In this document: piece after piece, positions 1-60,373 of the stretch
Layout of the letters: each line of letters begins with the position of its first letter
How positions within the stretch are numbered: the stretch's first letter is position 1
From: Candidatus Borrarchaeota archaeon
GTDB taxonomy: Archaea; Asgardarchaeota; Sifarchaeia; Borrarchaeales; Borrarchaeaceae
Direction of reading: 5' to 3'
DNA length: 64,000 bases
Assembly: GCA_016840645.1 (NCBI GenBank)
Contig: JAEORY010000001.1
Span: 33,963 to 97,962 of the forward strand
Notes under the pieces: model-generated
Databases searched by the model: none
Told to the model about the DNA's origin: nothing
Seen by the model: only the letters and a program-made list of their open reading frames with translations
Program-made: the position numbers and the translations under genes

Positions 1-86
1 AAGTATTAAAAGCCTGTCTGAAAATAAAGCCGGATTTTAAGCAGGCAAAAGAAAACTTGCAAGTATTAAAGCGGCGTGGAATATAG
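1..86 (+). CDS. C-terminal end of a TPR-repeat protein (partial)
   Basis: The reading frame starting at base 3 is open from the window edge to a TAG at 84-86, giving 27 codons. The residues form a typical tetratricopeptide second helix and the start of the next one (ACLKIKPDFKQAKENL). TPR repeats form protein-binding scaffolds. In phages they often accompany glycosyltransferases, but the rest of this gene is outside the window, so no specific role can be given. It lies on the same strand as the array and Nop-domain locus that follows, and a copy of the dispersed intergenic repeat begins directly after its stop codon. Confidence 0.55.
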   Translation, partial: VLKACLKIKPDFKQAKENLQVLKRRGI

Positions 87-146
87 CTTAAAACGCTGTC
101 ATTTAGCCGAGATTAGGTTTTCTTTTTAAATTAATACCTAAGTATA
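87..146 (+). repeat. Dispersed intergenic repeat, copy 1
   Basis: This is one of five related 60-65 bp elements (others at 6820, 13293, 34201 and 44962). The shared core is ATTTAGCC followed by KAKATTARR, a T-rich stretch, and a short inverted repeat around TAATACCTAAGTAT. Copy 1 starts one base after a stop codon and precedes the first spacer array. The function is unknown. A promoter, a processing site or a small non-autonomous mobile repeat are all possible. Confidence 0.6.
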
Positions 147-185
147 TTCTTAATAAAAAAATCGCGTGATCGCTTATAATATAAT

Positions 186-478
186 AAAAAAGTCACTCGA
201 TATAAGAAACCCACAAAGTGGAAGCGAGCCATGGGTTTTAAGAAACCCACCATCATCAAGCGAGCCACCAGCCGCAAGAAATCCAAGAAGTAAAAGCGAG
301 CCATGAGGTCGAAGAAACCCAGAACCGTAAAGCGAGCCAATCCAAAAAAGAAAACCAGAAAAGTTAAGCGAGCCAACGGTTTAAAGAAACCCATATCCGC
401 CAAGCGAGCCATGATGCGTAAGAAACCCACAGGTAAAAAGCGAGTCAAAAAGCCGAAGAAACCCAAGAAAGCTAAGCG
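186..478 (+). repeat. TIGR-like array 1 (36-nt period, dual 8-nt spacers)
   Basis: Two constant 10-nt motifs alternate: AAGAAACCCA (at 204, 240, 276, 312, 348, 384, 420, 456) and AAGCGAGCCA (at 222, 258, 294, 330, 366, 402, 438). Each is separated by exactly 8 variable bases. Degenerate copies of the second motif sit at 186 and 474. One full unit is 36 nt: motif, spacer A, motif, spacer B. This matches the published tandem interspaced guide RNA arrays, whose transcripts are cut to 36-nt dual-spacer tigRNAs. The motifs decay at the downstream end (AAGCGAGTCA at 438, AAGCGTTAAC at 474), as CRISPR arrays do, which favours transcription on the + strand towards the adjacent gene. No spacer target was identified. 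Confidence 0.82.
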
Positions 479-508
479 TTAACTAACTACAAAAAAGGAA
501 TGTAACCA

Positions 509-1435
509 ATGAAAAAAGAAATCAAAAGAATGGCAAGAAAAAGAACAGATGAGGTATTCCCTGAAAACGATTCACTATTTGATACTCATAGGTTAATACC
601 GAAAAGAAAAAATGGCACATACACGGATGAAAATACGGTAATCAAAATGCCGATTGATCATCAAATTGAGCATGGGACATTTAAGCAGAGAGAAAGTGAA
701 TTTGAAAAATTAAAAAGCCTATTTGATGATAGACAAAGTTTAATGAAGTCACGGATGAAAATAGATAATGCACTACTGGCATATAAAAGGGGAACAGATG
801 TTCCTACGATTGAAATGATAAAATTTTATGAAGAGAAAATCAAAGAATTTGTGAAGTTTGAAAATAAGAGAAAAGGGGAAATCGAAAAGCAGCTAGAAAA
901 AATAAACCATCCTGTCGCAAACGCCATGAGGGAGGTCGATCAGGTTGGTCCGGTTATCGCAGCAGGTTGTATTATTTATTTAGACATTAAAAAAGCACGC
1001 CATCCGAGTAGTTTTTGGAAATATTGTGGATTGGATAAACCATTTTTTAGTAGGTATGAAAAAGGCAAGTCCAGCGGGGGCAATAAAAAATTAAGAACTG
1101 TTTTATATAATATGGCAAAATGTCAGGAAATGTGTTTAACGGCACCTTATAGACCAGTATACGATAATAAAAAACAAAAACTTGCGCAAAGTGAAAAAAT
1201 CTGCGAGCAGACAAGAGGTACGGATGGGAAGATTAAAAAAAATGTAAAGTGGAAAGATGTAAAGCCATGTCATCGTCGAGGTGCAGCATTACGAGAAGTT
1301 ATGAAACATTTCTTAGCGGATTTACACTATGTATGGTGCTGTATTGAGGGGATTGAGCCTTCGAAGCCATATGCCGAAGCACAACTTGGAAAACATAAAA
1401 CTATTATGCCAGAAGAAAGAGGGTGGATTTTTTAA
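509..1435 (+). CDS. tasA: Nop-domain Tas protein of a TIGR-Tas system (nuclease-less, TasA type)
   Basis: The 308-residue basic protein has a charged helical, probably coiled-coil region at residues 55-135. A helix-hairpin-helix-like segment follows (VGPVIAAGCI, 146-155; SSFWKYCGLDKP, 167-178), then KSSGGNKKLRTVLYNMA at 187-203. The last two segments are the hallmark of the IS110 transposase C-terminal domain (Tnp_20), which is structurally related to the Nop domain of Tas and box C/D proteins. The N-terminal DEDD RuvC-like nuclease of IS110 transposases is absent, and no HNH or RuvC domain is visible. The protein would therefore bind guide RNA and DNA rather than cut or transpose. It has a good ribosome site (AAAGGAATG) and lies between two arrays, 31 nt after one and 3 nt before the other. 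Automatic pipelines would probably call it an IS110 transposase fragment. Family assignment is by motif and context only. Confidence 0.78.
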   Translation: MKKEIKRMARKRTDEVFPENDSLFDTHRLIPKRKNGTYTDENTVIKMPIDHQIEHGTFKQRESEFEKLKSLFDDRQSLMKSRMKIDNALLAYKRGTDVPTIEMIKFYEEKIKEFVKFENKRKGEIEKQLEKINHPVANAMREVDQVGPVIAAGCIIYLDIKKARHPSSFWKYCGLDKPFFSRYEKGKSSGGNKKLRTVLYNMAKCQEMCLTAPYRPVYDNKKQKLAQSEKICEQTRGTDGKIKKNVKWKDVKPCHRRGAALREVMKHFLADLHYVWCCIEGIEPSKPYAEAQLGKHKTIMPEERGWIF

Positions 1436-1438
1436 TTA

Positions 1439-1664
1439 AAGCGAGCCATCCTATCTAAGAAATCCAAAAGCATAAAGCGAGCCACCAGCATCAAGAAACC
1501 CATGATGCAGAAGCGAGCCATTGACCGCAAGAAACCCAGGAAGTAAAAGCGAGCCATGTTTATCAAGAAACCCAGTATCGAGAAGCGAGCCATCTGATTG
1601 AAGAAACCCATTAAGTTTAAGCGAGCCAGCGCTGTTAAGAAACCCAGAAGGTAAAAGCGAGTTA
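1439..1664 (+). repeat. TIGR-like array 2 (36-nt period, dual 8-nt spacers)
   Basis: The same two motifs as in array 1 continue after the tas gene: AAGCGAGCCA at 1439, 1475, 1511, 1547, 1583 and 1619, and AAGAAACCCA (once AAGAAATCCA) at 1457, 1493, 1529, 1565, 1601 and 1637. All are separated by 8-nt spacers, making six full 36-nt units. The array ends with a degenerate AAGCGAGTTA at 1655. It begins 3 nt after the tas stop codon, so it is probably co-transcribed with that gene. Several spacers nearly match ones in array 1 (tgatgcag and tgatgcgt; ggaagtaa and agaagtaa; ccagcatc and ccagccgc), suggesting duplication followed by spacer divergence. Confidence 0.82.
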
Positions 1665-2164: not shown

Positions 2165-4285
2165 TTAACCCTCAAGATTGCTATTTGTATCATCATAATT
2201 ATTGGAAGCAGCCTGCAGCACAACCCCTGTATTAGACATACTTTCACAGGTATTGCCTATCGCTGAAGTATAACTACAATAGGAACCGTTGATGCCATAG
2301 GTGCCATTTTTTAACGTATTTCCGACAAGGCTGAAAAAGCTCAACCCACCTGCATCAATTGATTGCAGCAGGATATTATCTGAAAGATCATCATCCCTTT
2401 CACACATATTTCCTGACACCGTACCATGCTTTATCGTTACACCAGTCAAGCAATAGATCCATATACATCTTGTATTTGCCGCTGATACTCCCTTTATAGT
2501 ATTATTATCAACTTTAACCATACTCATATTCGCCCTTGGTGCATAGACGAATATCCCATGAGTACCAGGATCTTCAATATAATTACCAGTTATCTGAATC
2601 CCTTCAAACGGTGTATCATTATTATATATGGTTTCTTGTGATACATAGATAGCCGCATTCCCAGCCGTACCACATCTGATAACTTTATTATCTTTTATAT
2701 GAGAAAAAGATGGAAGATCGCCATTATAGACAATAGGCCTATGATCTATACCTTCCAATTCAGTCCCAATTACAGTATTGCCAGTTATGGTTGCATTGAC
2801 GCCACTATACCTTATCCCTCTTTGTATAGTTCCATCACTATTGCCTGACTGAATAAAGTTATCAGTGATGCTTATATGATCCGCCATTGCATGAGTTTCC
2901 ATTCCATAATCTCTACAGGCACGAATTGTATTCTTATGAAATGTAATAAACCTACTCGGCATCAAGCTAGATCCAGCATCAGTTCCAGTCCTATAATATT
3001 CAACATGATTATGGGCTACCAATCCATTTGCACAGCCGCCGACTTGAATCCCATAACCATTAGCTGCCGGGGAATTACCAGTGAAGGTATTGCTTTCAAT
3101 CTTAAAATTAATTGTTCGATAGAGACCAATTCCATTTGTTTCAAAATCGTTAAATACACAATCTTTTATTCTAACATTCTTCGCCCATTGGGTTATAATA
3201 CCATATTGGCTACCACCACTACCCGAACCAGTCGCCGTCACACCTCTGATGAATATATTTTCTTTCAGAGACATAACATCTATCTTAGCACTATCAACGG
3301 TATAGTAGGCATAGAGCAAAGTATCGCCAAGATCGACACTCGCTGCGTTGACGTTTCTAATATAAACCCACTCGCCATTATAGGTACTATTCTGCTGATC
3401 CCATATCTCATCATCTCTAACAACTGTCCAATCTCCAGCGGTGAAGAAGCCCGCCGCCCCTGCGACTGGAATATTATCAGCTCCAGCTAAGACATTTGAT
3501 GTTAGTGCCTGTGCAGCACCTTGTGATCCTAAGACATGAAATAGATAATCACCATTTGGTGCATTGGAGAAATCTATCGTCCCGCCATACCCTTCAAATG
3601 TAATATTATTATTAAGGGTAAGGGTGGCATCAGCTCTAAAGTCTCTATGATTAGCATCTAAAATTCCACCACCAACCATCGATGTGAGAGCATTATTAAT
3701 GGCGGTCTCACTGTCGGTTGCTGCTGATGGGTCAGCACCAAACCATTCAGGGAATAGCCTCCCTTTATTAGTAAAGGTAATGCTATCAGCGATAGTGCTG
3801 CCGAATACTTGCTGATTCGTTGGAGCTAAAATCTGAGCAGGATTATCAAATGTAAGCGTTCCAGTTCCTCCGAATACAGCTCCCCTTTGAGGTTTAATCG
3901 AAACATTACTTGGAACCACTGCAGCAGTATTGACAGTGTAGGTTGTACCAGCCCCTGAGTTGACCAATACAATAGTCGCCTTATCAACACCTGCCTCATC
4001 TATGCAATCCTTCAGTGTTTTCAAGCTACCTGTTGCAACTACCCCTTGATCTCCTTCAGATGCATCGGCATACAAATACTTACCAACCAGGACCGATGAT
4101 ATAAGCTGATCTCTTGATTCGGTTGCTTCAGTCTTAAGAGCCTGACCGGAATTCAATATGAGAGATACAATTTCTTCTTGGATTGCATTCAACCACTCAT
4201 GAGTTACAACGGTCCCAGGTGGGCCTGTTTGAAATAGCTTTACACCATCGACCTCATTATAATCTGCGCCTTCAATTCTATGCAT
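2165..4285 (-). CDS. Tail spike or fibre with parallel beta-helix
   Basis: The 706-residue protein has the fibre anchor segment at residues 1-45 (GPPGTVVTHEWLNAIQEEI). A linker follows, then a pectate-lyase-like right-handed beta-helix from about residue 180 to 690. The helix shows as repeated short strands with N/G/T turns (ITGNTV, IKDNKV, ITGNYIEDPG, VKDNN-like segments, LVGNTLKNGTYG). Such spikes bind and often degrade host surface polysaccharide. The catalytic residues cannot be assigned by eye. It follows the baseplate gene set and is the best receptor-binding protein candidate in the window. The start is the ATG at 4285, directly downstream of the 4301-4903 gene. Confidence 0.8.
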   Translation of the reverse strand: MHRIEGADYNEVDGVKLFQTGPPGTVVTHEWLNAIQEEIVSLILNSGQALKTEATESRDQLISSVLVGKYLYADASEGDQGVVATGSLKTLKDCIDEAGVDKATIVLVNSGAGTTYTVNTAAVVPSNVSIKPQRGAVFGGTGTLTFDNPAQILAPTNQQVFGSTIADSITFTNKGRLFPEWFGADPSAATDSETAINNALTSMVGGGILDANHRDFRADATLTLNNNITFEGYGGTIDFSNAPNGDYLFHVLGSQGAAQALTSNVLAGADNIPVAGAAGFFTAGDWTVVRDDEIWDQQNSTYNGEWVYIRNVNAASVDLGDTLLYAYYTVDSAKIDVMSLKENIFIRGVTATGSGSGGSQYGIITQWAKNVRIKDCVFNDFETNGIGLYRTINFKIESNTFTGNSPAANGYGIQVGGCANGLVAHNHVEYYRTGTDAGSSLMPSRFITFHKNTIRACRDYGMETHAMADHISITDNFIQSGNSDGTIQRGIRYSGVNATITGNTVIGTELEGIDHRPIVYNGDLPSFSHIKDNKVIRCGTAGNAAIYVSQETIYNNDTPFEGIQITGNYIEDPGTHGIFVYAPRANMSMVKVDNNTIKGVSAANTRCIWIYCLTGVTIKHGTVSGNMCERDDDLSDNILLQSIDAGGLSFFSLVGNTLKNGTYGINGSYCSYTSAIGNTCESMSNTGVVLQAASNNYDDTNSNLEG

Positions 4286-4300
4286 AATAAATTATCCTTC

Positions 4301-4903
4301 TTATACACCAGTGACTGCCCAGTTACCGGTACCATCAAATCTCCATTTATAAACGCTATCAGCTGTAACTGTGCTACCTTCAACATAGCCAATAATGCCA
4401 AGGGTGCTATCACTAGTCCCAGGAGTCGTATCAATGCTCCCTGAATTAACCGTCGCGGCCGACTGTAAAAAGACCGGCTTTCCAACATACCCACTCAATC
4501 TTGAAAGCCCGCTGTCGTATATTAGGCCTTTTCTCAATACGATTATGCTGGTATTATTTGATGCGTAACTATCTGCCGCGATTCCTCTTGCCGGGTTTGC
4601 AGCAGAGTTTGACAGATCTGCCGGAAACCAGCATCCTGACTGAGCATCATAGGCAAGCGGCATCCCAAAGCTTGCACTATAATCGGAATGCAGGACTTGA
4701 CTATAATCATGCCAGCCTCTTGTAGTCTTATCAGTCGTGATATTTCCAACCGTAGGGCCACGCCAAAAATCACCGGAATTAACGAACTCACTCTGCATCA
4801 CTGTTACAACAAAATCTCTTAGATCTTGAGCACTGATCTGACCTGTCACATTATCTGCGAATAAGGCCAGAATCGCTGCCCTTGTTCTCTGGGTATCTGC
4901 CAT
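4301..4903 (-). CDS. Tail collar or fibre-associated structural protein
   Basis: The 200-residue protein begins TRAAILALFADNVTGQIS-AQDLRDFV, a segment common to phage tail-fibre or virion proteins encoded next to fibre genes. The rest is a Gly/Ser/Thr-rich beta protein ending in a trimer-like tip (YKWRFDGTGNWAVTGV). It lies between the gp48-like baseplate gene and the beta-helix spike gene, so a fibre base or attachment role is likely. The exact function is unknown. Confidence 0.6.
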   Translation of the reverse strand: MADTQRTRAAILALFADNVTGQISAQDLRDFVVTVMQSEFVNSGDFWRGPTVGNITTDKTTRGWHDYSQVLHSDYSASFGMPLAYDAQSGCWFPADLSNSAANPARGIAADSYASNNTSIIVLRKGLIYDSGLSRLSGYVGKPVFLQSAATVNSGSIDTTPGTSDSTLGIIGYVEGSTVTADSVYKWRFDGTGNWAVTGV

Positions 4904-6797: not shown

Positions 6798-6819
6798 AAT
6801 ATGAACCTTTAAATTTTAA

Positions 6820-6884
6820 TTTTAACAGCTCTCATTTAGCCTATATTAAACGATCTCTATCTAAGTAATACCTTAGTATTACCC
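6820..6884 (+). repeat. Dispersed intergenic repeat, copy 2
   Basis: It shares TTTAACAGCTCTCATTTAGCC and the following TATATTAAACGATCT segment with the other four copies. It ends in a perfect 7-bp inverted repeat with a 4-nt loop (GTAATAC CTTA GTATTAC) next to the stop codon of the gp46-like gene. Relative to transcription of the tail operon it is in the opposite orientation to copies 1, 4 and 5. Confidence 0.6.
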
Positions 6885-13260: not shown

Positions 13261-13292
13261 CTTCGCGTTGTCTCACTCTGCTTTAAAAATCG

Positions 13293-13356
13293 ATTTTAAC
13301 GGCTCTCATTTAGCCGAGATTAAACGATCTTTTTGAATTAATACTAAGATATTACC
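13293..13356 (+). repeat. Dispersed intergenic repeat, copy 3
   Basis: It matches copies 1 and 2 through TTTTAACGGCTCTCATTTAG and CCGAGATTAAACGATCT, and ends in the weak hairpin TAATA CTAAGA TATTA beside the sheath stop codon. The orientation is antisense to the operon, like copy 2. Confidence 0.6.
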
Positions 13357-25214: not shown

Positions 25215-27332
25215 CTATTTTAACGGTGAACTAAACTCTATATATCTTAAAGTAGTGACTTCAGCACTACTGCTGCTTGAACTACTACTACTTGATTCCG
25301 ATGATGAGCTTGAACTTGACGACTCAGACGATGAGCTGCTTGATTCAGACGAACTTGATGAACTGCTACTTGATGATTCAGAAGACGATGACGATGATGA
25401 TGAACTTGAACTTGATGACTCAGACGAACTTGATGAACTACTGCTGCTTGATTCAGACGATGAACTTGACGAACTTGAGGATTCAGATGAGCTTGAACTG
25501 CTGCTAGAAGATTCTGAAGACGACGATGATGATTCAGACGAGCTTGAACTACTGCTTGATGATTCTGACGACGAGCTTGACGACCGAGAAGAGGAGCTTG
25601 ACGACCGAGAAGAGGAGCTTGATGATTCAGACGATGATGATGAATGAGAAGAACTAAGACTTGATGAACTCGATGATTCAGATGAAGATGAAGACGATTC
25701 AGATGAAGATGAAGACGATTCAGATGAAGATGAGGATGATTCTGATGACGATGACGAACTACTGCTGCTTGACATTGATGAAGATGAACTTGAACTACTA
25801 CTACTTGATTCTGATGATGATGATGATCCAGACGATTCAGATGAACTTGATGATTCAGAAGATGATGAACTCGAACTTGATGATTCAGAAGATGATGAAC
25901 TCGAACTTGATGATTCAGAAGAGGATGAAGAACTTGATGAACTTGATGATTCAGAAGATGATGAACTCGAACTTGATGATTCAGAGGAACTTGAAGAACT
26001 TGAGCTTGATGATTCTGATGAACTACTACTCGATGATTCTGAAGAACTTGAGCTGCTACTCGATGATTCAGATGACGATGATGAACTGCTTGATTCTGAC
26101 GATGATGATAAGCTACTACTTGACGATTTAGATGAAGAAGATGAACTTGATGATGAGGATGAGCTTGTACTTGATGAACTCGATGATTCAGAGGATGAAC
26201 TCGATGATTCTGATGATGAGCTTGATGATTCCGAAGATGAGCTACTGCTACTACTCGATCCAGATGATTCCGATGAACTACTGCTTGAAGATTGTGACGA
26301 TGAACTTGATGACAGAGACGAAGATGACGATGAAACAGAGCTCGATGACTCAGATGAGCTTGAGGAATCAGAAGAACTTGAAACACCAGATGATGAGCTT
26401 GACTCAGACGAAGAAGATGAACTACTGCTACTTGACTCAGAAGATGACGATGAACTGGATGACTCTGATGAACTCGATGAGCTACTACTACTTGATTCTG
26501 ATGATGACGATGAACTACTACTTGATGATTCAGACGATGAGCTTGAAGATGAACTACTTGACTCTGATGATGAGCTTGAAGATGAACTGCTTGATTCTGA
26601 TGAGGATGATGACATCTTTGATGATGCCGAAGACGAACTTGAACTACTGCTACTTGACTGAGAAGAGGAGCTTGAAGAAAGAGAAGATGAACTTGATGAC
26701 TCTGATGAACTCGATGAGCTACTACTACTTGATTCCGATGAACTTGACGATTCCGATGAAGATGATGAGCTACTGCTTGATGATTCAGATGATGATGATG
26801 AACTCGAACTGGATGATTCAGATGAGGAAGACAAACTGCTACTGGACGATTCAGATGAAGAGCTTGAAGACGAACTTGAAGATTCAGACGAACTTGATGA
26901 ACTACTGCTGCTTGATTCAGACGAACTTGAAGAACTACTGCTTGATGATTCCGAAGATGAAGATGAGCTCGAACTTGATGATTCCGATGAACTTGATGAA
27001 CTACTACTGGACGATTCTGATGATGATGATGATTCAGAAGATGAGCTACTGTTGGATGATTCGGATGAGCTTGAGCTGCTACTGCTACTTGATTCTGAAG
27101 ATGACGAAGAACTGCTTGATTCAGACGAACTTGATGATTCTGACAGCGATGATGAGCTTGAAGATTCAGACGATGAGCTTGATGATTCTGACGATGAACT
27201 TGATGACTGAGAAGACGAGCTTGACGACCGAGATGAAGAGCTTGAAGCTCTTTCCAATAATAGAGCATCACTATTTGTCTCTAATAGTAAAGAGCCGCTT
27301 TCATCCTCTAATAAAAGTTCATCAAGTGCCAT
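25215..27332 (-). CDS. Giant Ser/Glu-repeat low-complexity protein 1
   Basis: The 705-residue protein has a short ordered start (ALDELLLEDESGSLLLETNS), then about 650 residues of serine runs broken by single Glu, Gln, Leu or Arg. It closes with a short tail (AEVTTLRYIEFSSPLK). The start resembles small Leu/Glu repeats found at the N termini of phage fibre proteins. Such a stalk is likely extended, acidic and possibly heavily modified on Ser. It has a GGAG site and is coupled to the next repeat protein. The codons used for Ser vary (TCA, AGC, AGT, TCG, TCT), so the low complexity is kept at the protein level. Confidence 0.6.
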   Translation of the reverse strand: MALDELLLEDESGSLLLETNSDALLLERASSSSSRSSSSSSQSSSSSSESSSSSSESSSSSSLSESSSSSESSSSSSSSESSSSSSSSSSESSNSSSSSESSSSSESSSSSSSSSSESSSSSSSSSSESSSSSSSSSSESSSSSSSSSSESSSSSSSSSSESSSSSLSSSSESSSSSSSSSSESSSSSSSSSSESSSSSESSSSSSSSSSESSSSSSLSSSSSSQSSSSSSSSSSASSKMSSSSSESSSSSSSSSSESSSSSSSSSSESSSSSSSSSSESSSSSSSSSSESSSSSSSSESSSSSSSSSSESSSSSGVSSSSDSSSSSESSSSVSSSSSSLSSSSSSQSSSSSSSESSGSSSSSSSSSESSSSSSESSSSSSESSSSSSTSSSSSSSSSSSSKSSSSSLSSSSESSSSSSSSESSSSSSSSSESSSSSSSESSSSSSSSSSESSSSSSSSSESSSSSSSSSSSESSSSSSSSSESSSSSSSSSESSSSSESSGSSSSSESSSSSSSSSSSMSSSSSSSSSSESSSSSSESSSSSSESSSSSSESSSSSSLSSSHSSSSSESSSSSSRSSSSSSRSSSSSSESSSSSSSSSESSSSSSESSSSSSSSSESSSSSSSSSESSSSSSSSSSESSSSSSSSSSSSSESSSSSSSSSSESSSSSSESSSSSSSSESSSSSSSSSSAEVTTLRYIEFSSPLK

Positions 27333-27335
27333 CTA

Positions 27336-29357
27336 TTAAAACTCCACAATATATTTAAAGGTAGAAGGAAATTCAATTATCTCCCAATCATCAAAAACTG
27401 CTGTCAGACTGCTTGAGCTTGAACTTGCTGAGCTTGAACTGCTACTGCTTGATTCAGACGACTCAGATGAAGATGATGATGAACTACTTGATGATTCAGA
27501 TGAAGAAGAAGAACTGCTGCTACTACTGGATTCAGAGGATGAACTTGAACTTGAACTTGATGACTCCGACGATGAAGATGATGATGATGAACTACTGCTT
27601 GATGATTCAGATGATGAAGATGAAGACGAGCTGCTTGATTCTGACGAAGATGATGATGAACTACTTGATGATTCAGATGAACTTGACGAGCTTGAACTAC
27701 TCGATTCAGATGATGATGAAGATGAACTACTGCTTGATTCTGACGAAGATGATGATAAACTACTGCTTGATTCAGAGGAAGATGAAGATGAACTACTGCT
27801 TGAACCGCTTGATTCAGATGAAGAACTCGAACTTGAACTGGATGACTCAGATGAAGATGATGAACTGGATGATTCCGATGACGAACTAGATGATAAAACA
27901 GATGATCTAGATGAAGATGAACTACTGCTTGAACCGCTTGATTCGGATGAAGAACTCGAACTTGAACTGGATGATTCAGATGAAGATGATGAACTGGATG
28001 ATTCCGATGACGAACTAGATGATAAAACAGATGATCTAGATGATGATGAACTTGAACTTGAACCGCTTGATTCGGATGAAGAACTCGAACTTGAACTGCT
28101 TGATTCAGATGAAGATGATGAACTTGAACTAGATGACTCTGATGAAGATGAAGATGAGCTACTACTCGATGATTCTGATGAGCTTGATGAACTCGAACTG
28201 GATGATTCAGATGAAGATGATGAACTACTACTTGACGATTCAGATGAAGATGAAGATGAAGAGCTACTCGACGATTCAGACGAAGATGATGAACTACTAC
28301 TGCTGCTTGATTCAGAAGATGATGACGATTCTGATGAAGATGAAGAACTACTACTGGATGATTCAGATGAACTTGAACTTGAACTACTACTCGACTCAGA
28401 CGAAGATGATGAACTCGAACTTGATGACTCAGACGATGATGATGAAGATGAGCTTGCCGCCGCATACTCATCAAAGCCAATATCCCAAGCACTGCGGGTA
28501 TCGCCATCTATGTCATCATCAAATGCGAAATTCCCATCAGCCGAAAGATCGGTGCCGTTACCACGGCAAACCGTATCATCACTATCTAGATGATAATCGT
28601 CATTATCTGAATCTACATAGGTTGGATTTCCCTCTCCTTCGTCTATGTTGGTCGTATCGGTTACTGTTCCGCTGATCCCAACTGTTGCTTTTAATACATT
28701 ATTTGTTGCATAAATAGTTCCAGTGGTTGTACCTGATTCGTTTATCCCTTTGTCTATAGTATGAATTGTATTGTTAAAAATATAAATATCGCCAGCTGGT
28801 TCTTGGCAACGTACACCCTCATTACTATCTAATAATAAATTATTGACAAAATATACTTCACCGGAATCAGGTCGGCCATATATACATCTATTGTCCACTC
28901 CTGCATTCGTACTTTCGTAAACCAGGCAACCAACAACAGCCGAATAACCAGAGTTAGAATCAAATTGTATGGTATTAATATAATTATTACCCGAAGTTGT
29001 TTTTGCTACAAGGTCTTGAATATACTGATATTCTTCGTCACAATTAATGACATAATTTTCTGGTGCCGATCTATGAAATTCGGCGCAACTGCCATCACTT
29101 TTCGGAATACCGGAGTGTTTTGCCCCAGATGCAGGGCGGACAATACGGCAATAAGCAGCAGAATAAGTACCGCCACCCAGGATGACTCTATCATCATGCG
29201 CCCCGGCATAAACCTCTAAAACCTCTGAAACCTCAGAAGAAGTTAAATCATTATCAGTAGCCGCCTCCCATGTAGCAACAGACGAGTAGTCCTTACCACC
29301 ACCAGAATCATAGCTACTGACATTTTCGTTTGTACCGGTTCTGCGACTGCTTGCCAT
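27336..29357 (-). CDS. Beta-helix protein with long Ser/Glu-repeat tail
   Basis: Residues 1-300 of the 673-residue protein form a likely parallel beta-helix (VYFVNNLLLDSNEGV, IYIFNNTIHTIDKGI, IYATNNVLKATVG) that closes with WDIGFDEYA. About 330 residues of Ser runs with single Glu follow, then a hydrophobic C-terminal tail (FDDWEIIEFPSTFKYIVEF). The layout suggests a folded head on a flexible stalk. Internal near-identical blocks at about 27791-27925 and 27935-28044 show recent duplication within the stalk. No signal peptide is seen, so it is more likely a virion fibre than a secreted protein. Confidence 0.6.
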   Translation of the reverse strand: MASSRRTGTNENVSSYDSGGGKDYSSVATWEAATDNDLTSSEVSEVLEVYAGAHDDRVILGGGTYSAAYCRIVRPASGAKHSGIPKSDGSCAEFHRSAPENYVINCDEEYQYIQDLVAKTTSGNNYINTIQFDSNSGYSAVVGCLVYESTNAGVDNRCIYGRPDSGEVYFVNNLLLDSNEGVRCQEPAGDIYIFNNTIHTIDKGINESGTTTGTIYATNNVLKATVGISGTVTDTTNIDEGEGNPTYVDSDNDDYHLDSDDTVCRGNGTDLSADGNFAFDDDIDGDTRSAWDIGFDEYAAASSSSSSSSESSSSSSSSSSESSSSSSSSSSESSSSSSSSSSESSSSSESSSSSSSSSSSESSSSSSSSSSSESSSSSSSSSSESSSSSSSSSSESSSSSSSSSSSESSSSSSSSSSESSSSSSSSSSESSGSSSSSSSSRSSVLSSSSSSESSSSSSSSESSSSSSSSSSESSGSSSSSSSSRSSVLSSSSSSESSSSSSSSESSSSSSSSSSESSGSSSSSSSSSSESSSSLSSSSSESSSSSSSSSSESSSSSSSSSSESSSSSSSSSSESSSSSSSSSSESSSSSSSSSSSSSESSSSSSSSSSESSSSSSSSSSSESSSSSSSSSSESSESSSSSSSSASSSSSSLTAVFDDWEIIEFPSTFKYIVEF

Positions 29358-34200: not shown

Positions 34201-34275
34201 TTATAATATACCTTAGTACTAATTTAAAAAGAAAGTTTAATATAGGCTAAATGAGGCTGTTTAAAGCTATGTTCT
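34201..34275 (-). repeat. Dispersed intergenic repeat, copy 4
   Basis: Read on the minus strand it gives CATAGCTTTAAACAGCCTC, ATTTAGCCTATATTAAAC and then TACTAAGGTATATTATAA. It begins 12 nt after the phosphoesterase stop and ends 1 nt before the next start codon. It is in the sense orientation, like copies 1 and 5, and shares the extra GCTTTAAACAGCCT block only with copy 5. Confidence 0.6.
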
Positions 34276-34286
34276 AAAGCTTTCTA

Positions 34287-37589: not shown

Positions 37590-37751
37590 TTACTTCTCCT
37601 CTATGTCAAAAACAACCATCCAGACTGGGATGTATCTCTTGCAAAAACAATTCTTACTATCACTTAGACACTTACGGCAATCACCTGAATCATCAAACGG
37701 CTCCCTTGGCGGCCTTAATTGATGTATACAAACTTTCCTTGGCGCTTTCAT
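37590..37751 (-). CDS. Small Cys-rich protein (53 aa)
   Basis: The ATG at 37751 overlaps the stop of the glycosyltransferase gene (ATGA), and the frame runs to a TAA at 37590. The next gene starts 4 nt later. The peptide has five Cys (VCIHQ, GDCRKCLSDSKNCFCKRY), enough for a zinc site, and a hydrophobic end (IPVWMVVFDI). The coupling on both sides makes it a likely real gene. Confidence 0.55.
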   Translation of the reverse strand: MKAPRKVCIHQLRPPREPFDDSGDCRKCLSDSKNCFCKRYIPVWMVVFDIEEK

Positions 37752-38578
37752 ATCTCAATGTGCTCTGTGAAGTTTTTAATTAATTTCGCCTTGCCCCAAT
37801 GCTTACCTTTGTTAGCTTGATATCGCTTATATTTAAGATTCAGTAGGCTAATAAGAGTATTTTTCCTCTGCTGATATCTCCAATCCGTATGGGGGTAATT
37901 ATCAGTAGGGTGTCTTTTATGATCATCAACATGAGAGAAGAATTTACCACCAAAGAATAAACAGGTAAAACCAGAGCAAAGGGCTCGATGGAGTAGATCA
38001 ACGTCATCAAATCCATATCCTTCTATATCCTCATCATAACCGCCAAGCCACATAAAATCCTTCTTGAAAAATCCCAGCCTTCCTCTGTTCTTCTGTTTGC
38101 TTTTTAAAAAAACAGGTTTCTTTATCCCTTGGTTAGCTAAGAAATTAATATATGATACGAAATCTTTTTTCACAAAATGATCAGCATCAACACTGTTAAC
38201 GATATCCCCTTGTGCAAGCTTGAAGGCAATATTACGGCTATGAGTCATACTATAATATTTTGGTTCCGTAGTATGGTAGTAATTAACGATGCCAGCATTG
38301 ATAAGCATCATCAACTCATCTTTAACCCATTCATCCATATCATCCTGGCTGTTATAATTAAGGAGGACGAACTCAGTCTTGCATTTGAAGCTATAGGAAT
38401 CAGTAATGTTCTTCAGATAGGTCTTCTTCAGATTTTCGGTGCGACCCATACAGGTCGTACAGATAGATATCCGATAATACTTTTTAACTGGCTTATTATA
38501 TGGACCGCGATCAAAACGCCTTGGTACAAAATCCCAAACATCATCCCTTAATATTTCCTGCATCAAATTATCAGGCAT
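37748..38578 (-). CDS. Glycosyltransferase, family 2 / GT7-like
   Basis: From the ATG at 38578 (AGGAG site) the protein has 276 residues. The N-terminal half has YRISICTTCMGRTENLKKTY and the acceptor-side NSVDADHFVKKDF, a DxD sugar-nucleotide site. The C-terminal half has MWLGGYDEDIEGYGFDDVDL, the galactosyltransferase-type acceptor motif (W-GG-x-x-x-x-x-x-GWGxED). It probably adds a sugar to a surface glycan or to phage DNA or protein. It is coupled by TAATG to the methyltransferase gene. Confidence 0.75.
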   Translation of the reverse strand: MPDNLMQEILRDDVWDFVPRRFDRGPYNKPVKKYYRISICTTCMGRTENLKKTYLKNITDSYSFKCKTEFVLLNYNSQDDMDEWVKDELMMLINAGIVNYYHTTEPKYYSMTHSRNIAFKLAQGDIVNSVDADHFVKKDFVSYINFLANQGIKKPVFLKSKQKNRGRLGFFKKDFMWLGGYDEDIEGYGFDDVDLLHRALCSGFTCLFFGGKFFSHVDDHKRHPTDNYPHTDWRYQQRKNTLISLLNLKYKRYQANKGKHWGKAKLIKNFTEHIEI

Positions 38579-39141
38579 TATCTCCTCACAAAACACATCA
38601 ATGTATTTCTAAACCAATCAAAGTCAGCCGACAAACGAAACATTCTCGTCCTCATAACATCATGCTCATAACATCTCTTCCGAAACTCATCAATGACATA
38701 GTCATTAGGCTGGCAATTGACATGCCCTGATGCACTATATTGCCCCGGCACTGCCCAGCTTAAAACAAGATATTTACGAGATAATTTGCATACATTCTCA
38801 ATAAACTGCTGCTCGTGCTTCTTAGGGATATGTTCACCCACCTCAAGACACAACGAGAAATCAAAATAATAGATATCATGAATTGGTTTAGATAAATCTA
38901 CCTGGACTATATCCTCATAAATGCCAAGCATGGTGACATCAGCGGTGCCTTCCAGCCCAACAATATCCCATCCCTTATCTGCAAAGTACCTGCAATACAT
39001 TCCAGAGCCACATCCAATATCCACCGCCTTCATTGGCAGCGAATACAAATTATGGATTGCAGCGGCAAGTGACTCATCAAACTTATGCCGCTTCTTAGCT
39101 ATTTTCAGGGACCATATCCCGGTTTCAGGATCTACATTCAT
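38578..39141 (-). CDS. SAM-dependent methyltransferase
   Basis: The 187-residue protein has motif I AVDIGCGSGMYCRYFADKGW near residue 41 and the expected acidic strand IVGLEGTADVT. The SAM-binding fold continues with YYFDFSLCLEVGEHIPKKH (motif IV region). It is a class I methyltransferase acting on a small molecule, sugar or protein. It lies in the sugar-modification cluster, so O-methylation of a glycan is the best guess. Confidence 0.75.
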   Translation of the reverse strand: MNVDPETGIWSLKIAKKRHKFDESLAAAIHNLYSLPMKAVDIGCGSGMYCRYFADKGWDIVGLEGTADVTMLGIYEDIVQVDLSKPIHDIYYFDFSLCLEVGEHIPKKHEQQFIENVCKLSRKYLVLSWAVPGQYSASGHVNCQPNDYVIDEFRKRCYEHDVMRTRMFRLSADFDWFRNTLMCFVRR

Positions 39142-39658
39142 TTTTTACCAACCAAACATGCTCCTCAAATGTTTCTATATTTTCTTCGCCGAATACTTCA
39201 TCAACCGCTTGCTTCACCCCACTCCAATGATTTCCATAGTCATGCCCTGTAAACAAACCGTTCTTTTTAACCTTCGAAAGCCAGGCTTTTATATCAGCCA
39301 TTACATGGCGGTAATAGTGATTGGCATCGAGAAAAGAGAGATCAAAGTAGGCATCAGGAAATATATTAGCAGATATAACCGAATTCATCCTTAGGACGTG
39401 CAACTGAGGATAATATCTCATCAAACGGCAGCAGTAGAAATACATCTCTTCCCAGTGCTCGCTTGAACGGTTGGATTGTTTGCCATGCCCATCACTCATA
39501 ACTTTCCATTCATCCACCGCCCAGTATTCTTTTATACTCGGGCAGGTCTTAAGCAGGCGTTTAGTCGTATCGCTTTTCCAAATGCCTATCTCGATTACAT
39601 TTTCACATTTATGCTTATTTATAAGCTCTATGAGTGCATCTGAATGCCTAACTTTCAT
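39125..39658 (-). CDS. Class I methyltransferase-like protein (copy 1 of a tandem pair)
   Basis: The 177-residue protein has NVIEIGIWKSDTTKRLLK (motif I-like), YWAVDEWKVMSDGHGKQSNR and SFLDANHYYRHVMADIKAWL, followed by GLFTGHDYGN. This fits the small 'Methyltransf_24' or class I SAM-fold proteins of sugar clusters. It is a tandem duplicate of the next gene, with a 65-nt stretch (39264-39328) identical to 39787-39851, which implies recent duplication or gene conversion. Confidence 0.65.
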   Translation of the reverse strand: MKVRHSDALIELINKHKCENVIEIGIWKSDTTKRLLKTCPSIKEYWAVDEWKVMSDGHGKQSNRSSEHWEEMYFYCCRLMRYYPQLHVLRMNSVISANIFPDAYFDLSFLDANHYYRHVMADIKAWLSKVKKNGLFTGHDYGNHWSGVKQAVDEVFGEENIETFEEHVWLVKNECRS

Positions 39659-40217
39659 TCTTCTTTATCCATATACTTGATGGTCTCAGAAAGGTAATGC
39701 CATCTTCACTAAACATTTCATCCACCGCCTGCTTAACCCCTGTATGATTTGGTTCATTATAATCGTGGCCCATAAATAAACCGTTATTTTTAACCTTCGA
39801 AAGCCAGGCTTTTATATCAGCCATTACATGGCGGTAATAGTGATTGGCATCAATATAGATCAAATCAGCGTATCGGTCAGGAAAGATAGAGGCTGCTTTA
39901 GCTGAATCACTCCTTATAACTCGTAGTTGAGGAAACCACTTAACCATCATCTCACAAGCATAAAGATGAATAAGATCCCAATTATCTTGGGATCTCTCGC
40001 CCATCCTACCGTGACCGTCTCCAAGATACCGCCATTGATCCACTGCATAATATTCCTTAATAATATTATAGCATACAGGATGCTTGCTCATAATATGCTT
40101 TATCAAACCACTTTTCCAGATGCCTACCTCGATTATCTTCTCACATTTATGATGTTTGATTATATTTGCGATCACAGAATGGTGGTGTTCGTTTGGCTTC
40201 CTAACTCTTGTACTCAT
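39648..40217 (-). CDS. Class I methyltransferase-like protein (copy 2 of a tandem pair)
   Basis: The 189-residue protein shares the layout of its neighbour: KIIEVGIWKSGLIKHIMSKH, YAVDQWRYLGDGHGRMGERS, LIYIDANHYYRHVMADIKAW and GLFMGHDYNE. The 65-nt identity with copy 1 covers the DANHYYRHVMADIKAWLSKV codons, while the flanks have diverged. It may modify a different acceptor from copy 1. The two genes overlap by 11 bp. Confidence 0.65.
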   Translation of the reverse strand: MSTRVRKPNEHHHSVIANIIKHHKCEKIIEVGIWKSGLIKHIMSKHPVCYNIIKEYYAVDQWRYLGDGHGRMGERSQDNWDLIHLYACEMMVKWFPQLRVIRSDSAKAASIFPDRYADLIYIDANHYYRHVMADIKAWLSKVKNNGLFMGHDYNEPNHTGVKQAVDEMFSEDGITFLRPSSIWIKKNES

Positions 40218-40237
40218 AACTTATACCTTATACCTTA

Positions 40238-41182
40238 TTATAAATTCTCTTCAACTAACTCTATAAATTTCTCTACCCGTTTCGTCATCGAGAACCTTTC
40301 TCTGACAAATCTCATGCCCTCACTAGCAATTCTTTTTCTTTCGTCAGGATGGTTTAAATAAAAATTAATCTTATCTACAAAGTCATCAATATTATCAAAA
40401 TCAACAAAGTGTTTCCCTGGCTCATATCCAAGGAATGAGTAATCTGGTGCAGTACTATCAGAAATTAATAATGTGCCACAAGCCATTACCTCATTTACAC
40501 GATTATTCAGAATACCTAATTTAATAGATTCATTTATACAAATTTTAGATTGGTTAATCTTGACTACATAATCATCCCAACCCACCTTACTGGTAAAGGT
40601 CGTTATATTCGGGAGGTCTTTAATAGCACATATCATACTTTTTCTATATCTATAAAAAGATTTTCGACTTGCATACATTGCAGAAACATCGAAAATCTTT
40701 TCAACATCTAACTTTCTAAATCTCTTTATCTCAACACCCGCTGGTAGTAAGAAAACCTTCTCTGATATACCTCGCTTTTTTAAATAGTCAACAGTAGGAA
40801 TTACCTGTCCAAAAGCAATATCAAATTTATGGCTACTAAAAAAATACTCATGCTTTCGCCCATAACTACACTCAGGGTTAGCCTCAAAAAAGCCAGCGGA
40901 GATACATACCTTAGGAATTTTCACCTCATTAAATCCTGGAACTATTATCTCAGAATACGACCATAAAATAATGTCTGGTTTAGGCCACATCATATCAATG
41001 ATATCTTGTAATAGCATTTTTTTATTATAAAATGCTGTATATCCCTTGCCCCAAAAAGTTACATTATGATGGCGAGCTAATTCCTCACGAAATAATTCCT
41101 CATGCCAATCAATTCTCCGACCCTTCCTCATTCGATCATAGACATCATATATACGTTTCGGGCCAATCAATAAAATATTCAC
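40238..41182 (-). CDS. Glycosyltransferase, CgeB-like / GT-B
   Basis: The 314-residue protein has a GT-B layout, with the N-terminal MNILLIGPKRIYD strand and C-terminal nucleotide-sugar half (KICINESIKLGILNNRVNEV, ACGTLLISD, FLGYEPGKHFVDFD, HPDERKRIASEGMRFVRERF). This matches spore-maturation CgeB-type glycosyltransferases. It overlaps the epimerase gene (ATGA). It probably transfers a sugar made with help of that epimerase. Confidence 0.8.
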   Translation of the reverse strand: MNILLIGPKRIYDVYDRMRKGRRIDWHEELFREELARHHNVTFWGKGYTAFYNKKMLLQDIIDMMWPKPDIILWSYSEIIVPGFNEVKIPKVCISAGFFEANPECSYGRKHEYFFSSHKFDIAFGQVIPTVDYLKKRGISEKVFLLPAGVEIKRFRKLDVEKIFDVSAMYASRKSFYRYRKSMICAIKDLPNITTFTSKVGWDDYVVKINQSKICINESIKLGILNNRVNEVMACGTLLISDSTAPDYSFLGYEPGKHFVDFDNIDDFVDKINFYLNHPDERKRIASEGMRFVRERFSMTKRVEKFIELVEENL

Positions 41183-42084
41183 TGATACATCTCTTTTTTA
41201 ATTCTTTTAATAACTCTATTAATACCAGACCAAACATCAATAGATGGAGTAAATTTTAAAATATTCTCTTGGAAAAACAAATCAGGTATTTTAGTAAGTG
41301 TCATCCTATCTGGCAACTTCTTAAATTTTATCAGATCATTATCAATACCCAATCCATGGGCTATAAATTTTGCTACTGTACTCATTTTAACAACTTTTGG
41401 ATGCCCTATATTAATGACATTATATTTTATCAAAGAAAAATCAGTATTAAGTAAACGGCTAAATGCAACCATCGCATCATCAATATGCATCCAACTTCTT
41501 CTTGATCCACTATGAACTTTTATATCTCTTCCTGCATATAAATCTGAAACAAATCTAATAATAGCGCTTCTATGATTACCAATAACTTCATTTCCCCCAT
41601 AAATCATAAATGGTCTAACCGTAACACAACTCAAACCATAATTCTTAATTTCATAATCTACTAACTGTTCAGCAAGATATTTGCTAATACCATAACGATT
41701 ATTAGGATTAGGAGTTAATTTTTCTGACATAATTTCATTAGTATTACCATAAACTTCAGATGTAGAAAAATTAATTAAAGAAGCACCATACTTTTTACAG
41801 ATTTGAATAACATTATTTGTACCAGTAACATTAGTATCAATGGCTAACTGAGCCTCTTTTTCACACGTAACCCTGCTAACAAATCCAGCCATATGATAAA
41901 CGAATTCAGGTTTAAAACTATCAATAATAGAACTAGAACAAGGATATTTAATATCCCATTGAATATAATCATCTTCATGCAAAGATACGATATCTACCCT
42001 CAATACATCATGTGAAAGAGATCTTAAATAAGGAACAAGTTCGCAACCAATATTACCCTCACTGCCAGTTACTAATATCCTCAT
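41179..42084 (-). CDS. NAD-dependent sugar epimerase/dehydratase
   Basis: The 301-residue protein starts MRILVTGSEGNIGCELVPYL with the GxxGxxG NAD motif. It has NFSTSEVYG and, further on, YGISKYLAE, the catalytic S-Y-K set of extended short-chain dehydrogenases. These convert nucleotide sugars (UDP-Glc, GDP-Man or dTDP-Glc derivatives). The exact sugar cannot be told. It forms an operon with the glycosyltransferases on either side. Confidence 0.85.
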   Translation of the reverse strand: MRILVTGSEGNIGCELVPYLRSLSHDVLRVDIVSLHEDDYIQWDIKYPCSSSIIDSFKPEFVYHMAGFVSRVTCEKEAQLAIDTNVTGTNNVIQICKKYGASLINFSTSEVYGNTNEIMSEKLTPNPNNRYGISKYLAEQLVDYEIKNYGLSCVTVRPFMIYGGNEVIGNHRSAIIRFVSDLYAGRDIKVHSGSRRSWMHIDDAMVAFSRLLNTDFSLIKYNVINIGHPKVVKMSTVAKFIAHGLGIDNDLIKFKKLPDRMTLTKIPDLFFQENILKFTPSIDVWSGINRVIKRIKKEMYQ

Positions 42085-42087
42085 TGC

Positions 42088-42186
42088 CTACAAAATTATC
42101 CAAATCTTATACAGTATATATCCACCAATTCCGAATATAACCATAAGCAACAAAACGATTATCAAAAGGGTAAATTCAACACTCAT
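42088..42186 (-). CDS. Small single-helix membrane protein (32 aa)
   Basis: The ATG at 42186 overlaps the stop of the membrane protein gene upstream (ATGA), and the frame ends at TAG 42088. The peptide is nearly all one hydrophobic helix (TLLIIVLLLMVIFGIGGYIL) with a short KIWIIL end. It may be a subunit or modulator of a membrane protein encoded nearby, or a small lysis factor. Coupled translation supports its reality. Confidence 0.5.
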   Translation of the reverse strand: MSVEFTLLIIVLLLMVIFGIGGYILYKIWIIL

Positions 42187-42344
42187 ATCATCCAACATAG
42201 CCAAATAAAGAAGGCGACTGCCATCAGGCAAGCCGCTACCCTGCAAAACCCTGCCATCCACTTAATAAAGTATTCTAACCCTCCACCTTTCCCATAATAG
42301 TCAGACAGATCAGGATCAGGTTCTGGCAAATTAGTAATCAACAT
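42183..42344 (-). CDS. Small membrane protein
   Basis: From the ATG at 42344, which has an AGGAG site, the protein has 53 residues. It starts acidic and Pro-rich (LITNLPEPDPDLSDYYG) and ends with a single hydrophobic segment (VAACLMAVAFFIWLCWMI). The C terminus would be in the membrane. It overlaps both neighbours, so it belongs to the sugar operon unit. No function is known. Confidence 0.5.
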   Translation of the reverse strand: MLITNLPEPDPDLSDYYGKGGGLEYFIKWMAGFCRVAACLMAVAFFIWLCWMI

Positions 42345-44956: not shown

Positions 44957-44961
44957 ATACT

Positions 44962-45023
44962 TCTTAATATTACCCAATAGGAGAACGTTTAATATAGGCT
45001 AAATCAGGCTGTTTAAAGCTATG
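44962..45023 (-). repeat. Dispersed intergenic repeat, copy 5
   Basis: Minus-strand sequence CATAGCTTTAAACAGCCTG then ATTTAGCCTATATTAAACG and TAATATTAAG aligns with copy 4 almost base for base in its first half. It fills the gap between the lipoprotein gene stop and the large glycosyltransferase start, in the sense orientation. Confidence 0.6.
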
Positions 45024-45032
45024 TTTTAACCA

Positions 45033-59020: not shown

Positions 59021-59189
59021 AAAAGCACCAGTTAAGCAAAAAATAAACCGCTGGTGGCATTATAATCTAACAAGAGACAATCTATTAGAGTTCGGGATAT
59101 ATAGGGATTGGATGATACCCTATATATCCTTTGATAAAGCGATGAAGTTAGCTGGAGAAAAATTTACAGACAAAAGGAGCAACCAATGA
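58983..59189 (+). CDS. Hypothetical basic protein
   Basis: The start at ATG 58983 gives 68 residues (IRVRKAAIKRIRKAPVKQKI ... SFDKAMKLAGEKF). The N-terminal half is extremely basic. It overlaps both neighbours. It may bind nucleic acid. No family is recognised. Confidence 0.45.
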   Translation: MIRVRKAAIKRIRKAPVKQKINRWWHYNLTRDNLLEFGIYRDWMIPYISFDKAMKLAGEKFTDKRSNQ

Positions 59190-60373
59190 AAATATTCAGT
59201 GTAAAAAATGATCTTATTTTTATTTATCAAGATAATGAACCAACCCTGAAAAGGACAATTGAAAATGCTGTCAAATCTGGCATTAGCTTAAATTATGCCG
59301 AGCTGAATAATGCCGAGCTGAATGGTGCCAAGCTGAATGGTGCCAAGCTGAATAATGCCGAGCTGAGTAATGCCAAGCTGAATGGTGCCAAGCTGAATAA
59401 TGCCAAGCTGAATGATGCCGATCTGAATGATGCCGAGCTGAATTATGCCGATCTGAATGATGCCGAGCTGAATGATGCCGATCTGAATGATGCCGATCTG
59501 AATGGTGCCGATCTGAATGGTGCCGAGCTGAATGGTGCCAATCTGAATTATGCCAAGCTGAATTATGCCAAGATGAATGGTGCCAAGCTGAATTATGCCA
59601 ATCTGAATTATGCCAAGCTGAATGATGCCAAGCTGAATGATGCCAAGCTGAACGGTGCCAAGCTGAATGGTGCCAAGATGAATAATGCCAAGCTGAATGA
59701 TGCCGAGCTGAATGATGCCGAGCTGAATGATGCCAAGCTGAATGGTGCCTGGATGAATGATGCCAAGATGAATAATGCCAAGCTGAATGATGCCGAGCTG
59801 AATGGTGCCGAGCTGAATTATGCCAAGCTGAATGGTGCCAAGATGAATGATGCCAAGATGAATGATGCCGAGCTGAATTATGCCGAGCTGAATGGTGCCG
59901 AGCTGAATGATGCCAAGCTGAATTATGCCAAGCTGAATGATGCCAAGCTGAATTATGCCAAGCTGAATTATGCCAAGATGAATGATGCCGAGCTGAATGG
60001 TGCCGAGCTGAATGGTGCCAATCTGAATGGTGCCGAGGGGTTATTAGATCCATCTAAATGGCTGGAAGAAAACTTCAGATATATTTCAGATGGATTAATC
60101 ACCTACAAAGATGTTCAATCCACTTTTCACAAAAAACCTGAATCATGGAAGATTGAACCTGGAAGCTATTTAGCAGAAATATGCAATCCAAACAGAACAA
60201 CTGATTGTGGCAGTGGCGTTAATTTTGCAACATTGGATTGGCTGAGGAAATACTCACACCATGAAATATGGGAATGCATTATCGAATGGAAAGACCTCCC
60301 TGGAATCATTGTACCGTATAATACAGATGGAAAGGCAAGATGTCATCGCCTTAGATTAATTAGAAAAATATAA
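59186..60373 (+). CDS. Pentapeptide-repeat protein with C-terminal domain
   Basis: The 395-residue protein has about 50 tandem five-residue repeats at residues 37-285 (A-x-L-N/M-N/D/G/Y type, such as NAELNDAKLNGAKLN), forming a square beta-helix. Some family members mimic DNA and protect or inhibit gyrase (MfpA, Qnr), but many are of unknown function. The C-terminal 110 residues (GLITYKDVQSTFHKKPESW; NRTTDCGSGVNFATLDWLRK) form a domain also seen in other phage pentapeptide proteins. At the DNA level the region is a 15-bp minisatellite. Confidence 0.75.
   Translation: MKIFSVKNDLIFIYQDNEPTLKRTIENAVKSGISLNYAELNNAELNGAKLNGAKLNNAELSNAKLNGAKLNNAKLNDADLNDAELNYADLNDAELNDADLNDADLNGADLNGAELNGANLNYAKLNYAKMNGAKLNYANLNYAKLNDAKLNDAKLNGAKLNGAKMNNAKLNDAELNDAELNDAKLNGAWMNDAKMNNAKLNDAELNGAELNYAKLNGAKMNDAKMNDAELNYAELNGAELNDAKLNYAKLNDAKLNYAKLNYAKMNDAELNGAELNGANLNGAEGLLDPSKWLEENFRYISDGLITYKDVQSTFHKKPESWKIEPGSYLAEICNPNRTTDCGSGVNFATLDWLRKYSHHEIWECIIEWKDLPGIIVPYNTDGKARCHRLRLIRKI

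Follow-up and report, generated by a model that had tools for sequence, protein, structure and literature searches.

A phage TIGR-TasH locus with arrays on both sides of its gene, and same-slot re-use of spacers among its relatives

Introduction

Does a phage-borne locus of short repeat arrays around a single gene encode a system that cuts DNA or one that only binds it, what would its guides recognize, and how do its arrays grow? These questions are raised by a locus near the start of a 64,000-nt stretch of contig JAEORY010000001.1 (positions 33,963 to 97,962, hereafter the window), which an initial annotation had assigned to the TIGR-Tas systems, as a nuclease-less member that may bind host or rival-phage DNA to silence or mark it. 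In TIGR-Tas systems, two distinct repeats of 8-12 nt alternate with spacers of ~9 nt (8 nt in SpTIGR, the system of Salicola phage CGphi29), and the arrays lie upstream and/or downstream of a gene encoding a Nop-domain Tas protein (PMC12045711). Each unit comprises an edge repeat, spacer A, a loop repeat and spacer B, and is matched by a tigRNA of 36 nt with both ends in mid-edge, which in SpTIGR leaves 16 nt of spacer per unit; a typical array begins with a 5′-truncated edge, ends with a 3′-truncated one and is followed by a rho-independent terminator (PMC12045711).

Two arrays flank the gene for a Tas protein with an HNH domain

Between 204 and 456, and again between 1439 and 1655, each repeat sits exactly on an 18-nt lattice, so that the unit is exactly 36 nt and each spacer exactly 8 nt, as the initial annotation had read them. 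With 10-nt edge and loop repeats, 8-nt spacers, arrays on both sides of the gene, and a protein recognized as Tas by family model and fold, this is a genuine TIGR-Tas locus, of subtype TasH and an expected member of the published family. Both repeats start with AAG and finish with CCA, in line with the box C/D motifs that edge and loop have in common in TIGR-Tas systems (PMC12045711). With one mismatch at most, the + strand of the window has 14 copies of the edge motif (13 within the arrays) and the − strand none; for the loop motif the counts are 19 on the + strand (14 within the arrays) and one on the − strand. Tandem Repeats Finder gave the arrays scores of 193 and 200 in its rows with a 72-nt period. 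The truncated first and last edges typical of TIGR-Tas are present in array 1, whose count of eight units takes in the first unit with its truncated edge, and array 2 departs from this arrangement in part. The predicted processing point lies in mid-edge, because tigRNA ends have been placed there (PMC12045711). A CRISPR-Cas array, with one repeat of ~25-36 nt and spacers of similar size, is ruled out by the two 10-nt repeats and 8-nt spacers, and Rfam gave zero matches in the window at the gathering threshold.

The protein had been described as carrying only the Nop/Transposase_20 part, and hence as nuclease-less. This did not hold: its first ~60 residues form an HNH domain, as judged from alignment, column counts and predicted fold. 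Aligned with the CGphi29 TasH, for which a structure has been solved, the N-terminal region is matched throughout the HNH; it also keeps the family HNH residues in column counts over 121 sequences and adopts a strand-strand-helix fold in the predicted model. An N-terminal HNH fused to a Nop domain defines subtype TasH, which is what the window protein displays; TasA, a solo Nop domain without a nuclease, does not describe it, since the HNH is present. The structure prediction came out Tas-like, and the assignment to a phage-borne TIGR-Tas system related to IS110 is supported by family models together with fold and array anatomy, so that the family named in the initial annotation was right and the subtype wrong. 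Coordinates are given in Table 1.

Table 1. Features of the TIGR-TasH locus in the window
Feature	Position	Strand	Description
Dispersed ~70-bp intergenic element, one copy	79..148	+	Directly upstream of array 1; BLAST match
TATAAT, -10-like hexamer	175..180	+	Read from sequence; would start transcription near the first tigRNA
TIGR array 1	191..478	+	8 predicted 36-nt tigRNAs, predicted register
Array 1, unit order			Half edge AGCCA, spacer A (8 nt), loop AAGAAACCCA, spacer B (8 nt), half edge AAGCG
Array 1, first edge	191-195		5′-truncated, AGTCA
Array 1, last edge	474-478		3′-truncated, AAGCG
tasH gene	509..1435	+	308 aa
HNH nuclease core of TasH	581..673	+	Residues 25-55: D25, H27, R28, N42, H51, H55
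Nop / Transposase_20-like RNA-binding part	689..1426	+	Residues 61-306, long helices
TIGR array 2	1444..1659	+	6 predicted 36-nt tigRNAs
Array 2, first edge	1439-1448		Full; starts 3 nt past the tasH stop codon
Array 2, last edge	1655-1664		Degenerate, AAGCGAGTTA

The locus belongs to a family of phage loci related to SpTIGR

The closest known system is the TIGR-TasH of Salicola phage CGphi29 (SpTIGR; HQ634153.1; PMC12045711), whose protein likewise joins a Nop part to an N-terminal HNH, is of nearly equal length and is 40.8% identical. The two share the consensus edge repeat AAGCGAGCCA, 36-nt units, 8-nt spacers and an array downstream of the gene. They differ in the loop repeat (AAGACAACCA in CGphi29, AAGAAACCCA in the window), in the HNH motif (DVDR versus DTHR) and in setting, the window having two arrays that flank the gene in a contractile-tailed phage of ~95 kb, whereas CGphi29 is a 40.7-kb phage. 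TIGR-TasR (PDB 9mty; TaTIGR) has a RuvC domain and 9-nt spacers instead of HNH and 8-nt spacers, and its repeats start with UG (PMC12045711) rather than AAG. No paper on TasH structure was found among the matches listed in the literature.

A profile scan of viral contigs yielded 43 loci, including this phage and several near-identical sisters. Among prokaryote contigs (one genome per species, 84,980 species), three peptide patterns matched 50 stretches, none of which encodes a relative. A 36-nt periodicity adjoins the gene in 42 of the 43 loci, the exception (L065) being a broken copy with two units by pattern. Parsing of the arrays gave 443 units, corresponding to 377 distinct spacer pairs; clusters of fewer than three units were dropped, with three contigs excepted in the search of TasH-phage contigs, and for some relatives the data compared stop short of the contig's last stretch. 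Thirteen of the 14 window units, omitting the first with its truncated edge, entered the searches with 377 pairs, the shared-target test, the 24-contig own-genome test, the stop counts, the repeat consensuses and the comparison of array turnover; all 14 entered the search of the phage's own 94,690 bp, the search of capsid relatives with window pairs, the re-search of 198 stretches and the analysis of spacer re-use.

Repeat consensuses were compared in 36 arrays with at least three parsed units each. Loop positions 3-8 are G-C in all 36, while edge positions 4-7 are C-G in 22, T-A in 13 and T-T in one, and edge positions 3-8 are G-C in 23, G-T in eight, A-T in four and A-C in one; as the arrays are related by descent, these counts are not independent events. 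An extra edge pair backed by covariation has been reported for TasR (PMC12045711), and the edge covariation found here is of the same kind.

Several relatives deserve mention in their own right. Microcystis phage Mvi-JY20 (L004) encodes at 3950-4675 a 241-aa Tas relative, annotated as a hypothetical protein, beside an array with consensus edge ATGCGAGCCA that is related to the window arrays. This protein is 29.5% identical to the window TasH over residues 68-306 but lacks the HNH motif; in our view the locus is likely a nuclease-less TasA in a phage of named host. The same metagenome as the window phage's contig contains a second TasH phage (L058, IMGVR 3300017963_006299) with its own arrays and a 41% identical TasH, and a further locus, 3300017991_005544 (L060), has spacers identical to those of L058. 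When an adaptation gene was sought in 44 compared loci, no gene family besides tas was common to more than 13 of them; the 13-locus family consists of an open frame that runs over the arrays. The next family, in 12 loci, has a start that we take to resemble the bacterial DNA polymerase III alpha subunit.

Alternative readings and the proposed mechanism

A TasA-like protein that binds guided DNA without cutting it, for instance to silence or mark it, would agree with the Pfam result for the full-length protein, in which Transposase_20 alone is found above cutoff. Loss of cutting does probably occur in the family, since one full-length relative (L037, IMGVR 3300032163_000079, tas at 3046-3924) has a decayed HNH, with DANR at the motif, the Asn kept and both late His gone, and still has a 36-nt array adjoining its tas gene. 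In the window protein, however, the HNH residues and fold are intact, as is the motif in 39 of the 43 related loci, the four failures being L037 and three truncated or disrupted copies (L061, L064, L065). We regard binding without cutting as quite improbable for this locus. Kinship with IS110 could also suggest a transposase guided by a bridge RNA, a reading to which we give almost no credence: the window protein scores 22.6 bits against the NCBIfam IS110 cutoff of 140, its N-terminal domain is an HNH, with the alignment to IS621 beginning only at model residue 49, and its gene is flanked by 36-nt dual-repeat arrays. IS110-family transposases (IS621, ISCro4) lack a TIGR array; they have a DEDD nuclease domain, use a bridge RNA and transpose (in part from PMC12045711).

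In a further reading, the arrays would be coding sequence for a repeat protein, lysine/arginine-rich or antisense, and not guides. In its favor, 36 is divisible by 3 and an antisense open reading frame (ORF) runs through each array (131-466 and 1432-1668), with no stops among 91 spacer codons in that frame. Yet sense-frame spacer stops in the window number 4, 7 and 10, versus 3.0, 6.4 and 9.6 expected from shuffled spacers, and a fraction of 0.121 of 1000 shuffles also lacked antisense stops, making such a frame not unusual. Over the 377 pairs, stops are somewhat fewer than expected in two of the antisense frames (60 versus 79.1; 73 versus 88.9) and more numerous in the third (169 versus 141.0), which argues for base bias rather than one coding frame. 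With window stop counts near chance, a translated repeat protein is extremely unlikely.

Some observations weigh against an RNA-guided HNH nuclease. Scanned alone, the N-terminal 78 residues of TasH hit none of the HNH families in Pfam; the corresponding stretch of the CGphi29 TasH likewise gives none above cutoff, so that the missing match is uninformative. In our own alignment R28 occupies the position of the general-base histidine of Cas9; the CGphi29 enzyme also has R28, and the catalytic chemistry is therefore taken over from that enzyme. A simple consensus scan of the + strand from 1 to 2200 found no terminator-like site, and no spacer pair has an identified target in the phage sequences searched, nor did any set give a convincing excess (see below).

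Weighing these points, we conclude that the locus is very probably a phage TIGR-TasH, most likely an RNA-guided DNA endonuclease with an HNH domain, a function that would follow by analogy with the characterized relative. In this mechanism, the arrays and tasH would be transcribed on the + strand, and processing of the transcript at the midpoint of every edge repeat would release fourteen tigRNAs of 36 nt. For the -10-like hexamer there is no good -35, and a promoter scan called nothing there. Each TasH dimer would hold one tigRNA, the edge and loop repeats being bound by its two protomers; spacers A and B would pair with opposite DNA strands, at a site made up of A and then the reverse complement of B, and the two HNH domains would then cut both strands. 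During infection the system would most likely serve to cut the DNA of the host or of mobile elements that compete with the phage, regulation of the phage's own genome seeming less likely.

Search for targets in phage sequences

The layout of a site as A then rc(B), where rc is the reverse complement, was derived from the 8-nt 3′ overhangs described in PMC12045711. We searched with gaps of 0-2, using the reverse layout, same-strand layouts and permuted pairs as controls. The spacer-pair search called for in the initial annotation, run here against phage sequences, turned up no target. In the phage's own genome, with arrays unmasked, the 14 window pairs gave no exact A.rc(B) match, one with one mismatch (0.15 expected from permuted pairs) and three with two mismatches (4.0 expected), while the opposite layout gave two with one mismatch, one of them inside an array (1.2 expected). 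Across 24 contigs, each of at least 30 kb and with at least four non-duplicate units, own-genome matches with at most two mismatches numbered 36 versus 52.6 for permuted pairs, a mild deficit, to which one contig (G010) ran opposite, with 7 versus 1.67.

The 377 pairs were then compared with 1.76 Mb of TasH-phage contigs, arrays masked, giving exact/one-mismatch counts of 2/79 for A.rcB, 1/77 for rcA.B, 5/92 for A.B and 3/84 for B.A, so that the published layout shows no excess over the others. None of the 13 window pairs compared matches the second TasH phage of the same metagenome (L058/G038) in A.rcB with at most one mismatch, and one pair of that phage matches the window phage with one mismatch and a 2-nt gap. 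In 0.93 Mb of capsid relatives (79 loci, the best 80 of 218 minus the window phage), window pairs gave no A.rcB match with at most one mismatch (permuted 0.85) and 35 with two (permuted 26.0; other layouts 29, 29 and 35), and the 377 pairs gave exact/one-mismatch counts of 1/39, 0/23, 2/22 and 0/39 in the same order of layouts.

Exact scans of IMG/VR with five of the 14 pairs, at gaps 0-2, returned 25, 46, 57, 49 and 21 stretches. None of these 198 stretches was matched by more than one of the five patterns, and searching them again with all 14 pairs added one match with one mismatch, versus 2.75 expected from permuted pairs of the nine unscanned units. One match (L403) has an IMG number near that of the phage's contig and is backed by no other pair. 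By our estimate, tens of matches per pair are about what chance gives at 16 nt of specificity, so that this negative in phage sequences does not mean that no target exists. Shared targets left no trace either, similar 16-mers between unrelated contigs not exceeding shuffles: pairs alike at 14-15 of 16 letters link sister phages or units of a single array, and two pairs agree at 13 of 16, one inside an array and one between unrelated contigs, the latter a case that one of three shuffles produced as well.

Spacers are re-used within their own slot

For the analysis of array growth, eight sister contigs were dropped by hand, leaving 36 contigs and 364 units, and re-use was defined as identity at 7 or 8 of 8 letters. 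Within the arrays of a contig, A spacers recur as A spacers in 14 of 2,035 pairs (35 of 64,031 between contigs) and B spacers as B spacers in 13 of 2,035 (36 of 64,031), compared with 5 of 4,070 for A against B (72 of 128,062). Same-slot re-use thus exceeds the rate between contigs ~12-fold and that across slots 5-fold (Fisher p 1e-4). Spacers also recur across slots ~2 times as often as between contigs, so that composition or relatedness accounts for part of the effect. Randomizing slots gave 16.0 ± 2.9 cases, with a maximum of 26 in 500 randomizations, versus 27 observed, which are spread over 20 of the 36 contigs.

The partner spacer agrees at no more than 5 of 8 letters in 21 of 25 re-use unit pairs. 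Among pairs placeable on one lattice within 20 units, those showing re-use are 1-2 units apart in 14 of 18 cases, versus 530 of 1,322 for all pairs (p 0.0025). The pattern of same-slot re-use, usually with a new partner and often 1-2 units away, is seen across loci L023-L065 and in CGphi29. In the window, the third units of the two arrays carry near-identical B spacers (AGAAGTAA and GGAAGTAA), with A spacers that agree at 4 of 8 letters. Separately, the arrays of two related phages (L030/G010 and L034/G014) contain units that are partly identical, partly changed by one base and partly wholly different, which, on sequence comparison, reads as natural array turnover.

The simplest reading of the re-use would be local copying of half-units by recombination between like repeats, followed by drift, the alternative being recurrent selection of the same half-site. 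We propose, tentatively and at somewhat short of even chances, that TIGR-TasH arrays may make new guide pairs without adaptation machinery: a half-unit, one spacer with its flanking repeats, would be copied nearby into the same slot, A or B, and joined to a different partner, so that 8-nt half-guides are shuffled into new 16-nt specificities.

The carrier phage and its other repeats

The window starts inside a phage genome, its first 7,432 bases being identical to IMG/VR contig 3300017963_003892. It overlaps two IMG/VR records at 99.99-100% identity, giving a joined phage sequence of 94,690 bp, and in the protein database its TasH occurs on three contigs, the longest of 97,962 bases. Encoded are tail sheath, baseplate wedge protein, major head protein, portal, protease, terminase, helicase and primase. 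Judged by gene content, the carrier is a bacterial virus, a phage of ~95 kb that is predicted to be contractile-tailed because tail sheath, baseplate wedge and other structural genes are encoded. No capsid or terminase match in the annotated phage records (357 and 1,200 records) reaches 60% identity. Upstream, the locus is bordered by a + strand gene of 970 aa; downstream come − strand genes, which continue into the tail cluster.

Directly upstream of array 1 is one copy of a partly palindromic ~70-bp element with the core CTCATTTAGCCgAGATTAAACGATCT ... TAATAC..TAGTATTA, found between genes in both orientations. BLAST matched positions 79..148 to a copy at 34205-34274 and positions 95-148 to one at 13302-13353; the copies in the window span 79-148, 6804-6881, 13281-13356, 34205-34280 and 44981-45029, and others lie about 600 nt beyond the window end and 16.5 kb upstream. 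For each of the four other window copies, a predicted gene starts no more than about 90 nt downstream, and the element may be a phage promoter or operator. Elsewhere in the window, a 15-bp tandem repeat (AATGATGCCAAGCTG) runs for 49.6 copies at 59291-60034 inside the ORF at 59186-60373, two neighboring − strand ORFs at 25215-29357 contain long low-complexity tandem repeats, the first opening with serine-rich stretches, and a phage-borne block of glycosyltransferases, methyltransferase-like proteins and a sugar epimerase occupies 37748-44977.

Conclusions

The locus, once read as lacking a nuclease, has one. Few TIGR systems have been studied biochemically, and the locus, carried by a phage recovered at about 95 kb, is closely related to one of them. 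Together with its relatives it provides 364 spacer pairs from 36 contigs under one repeat grammar, a homogeneous set for two questions left by PMC12045711, the natural targets and the growth of the arrays. The target question gave a negative result at the present depth, and the growth question has become a measurable pattern, same-slot re-use of half-units. If true, half-unit shuffling would answer how TIGR arrays grow, with the third units of the two window arrays as one example.
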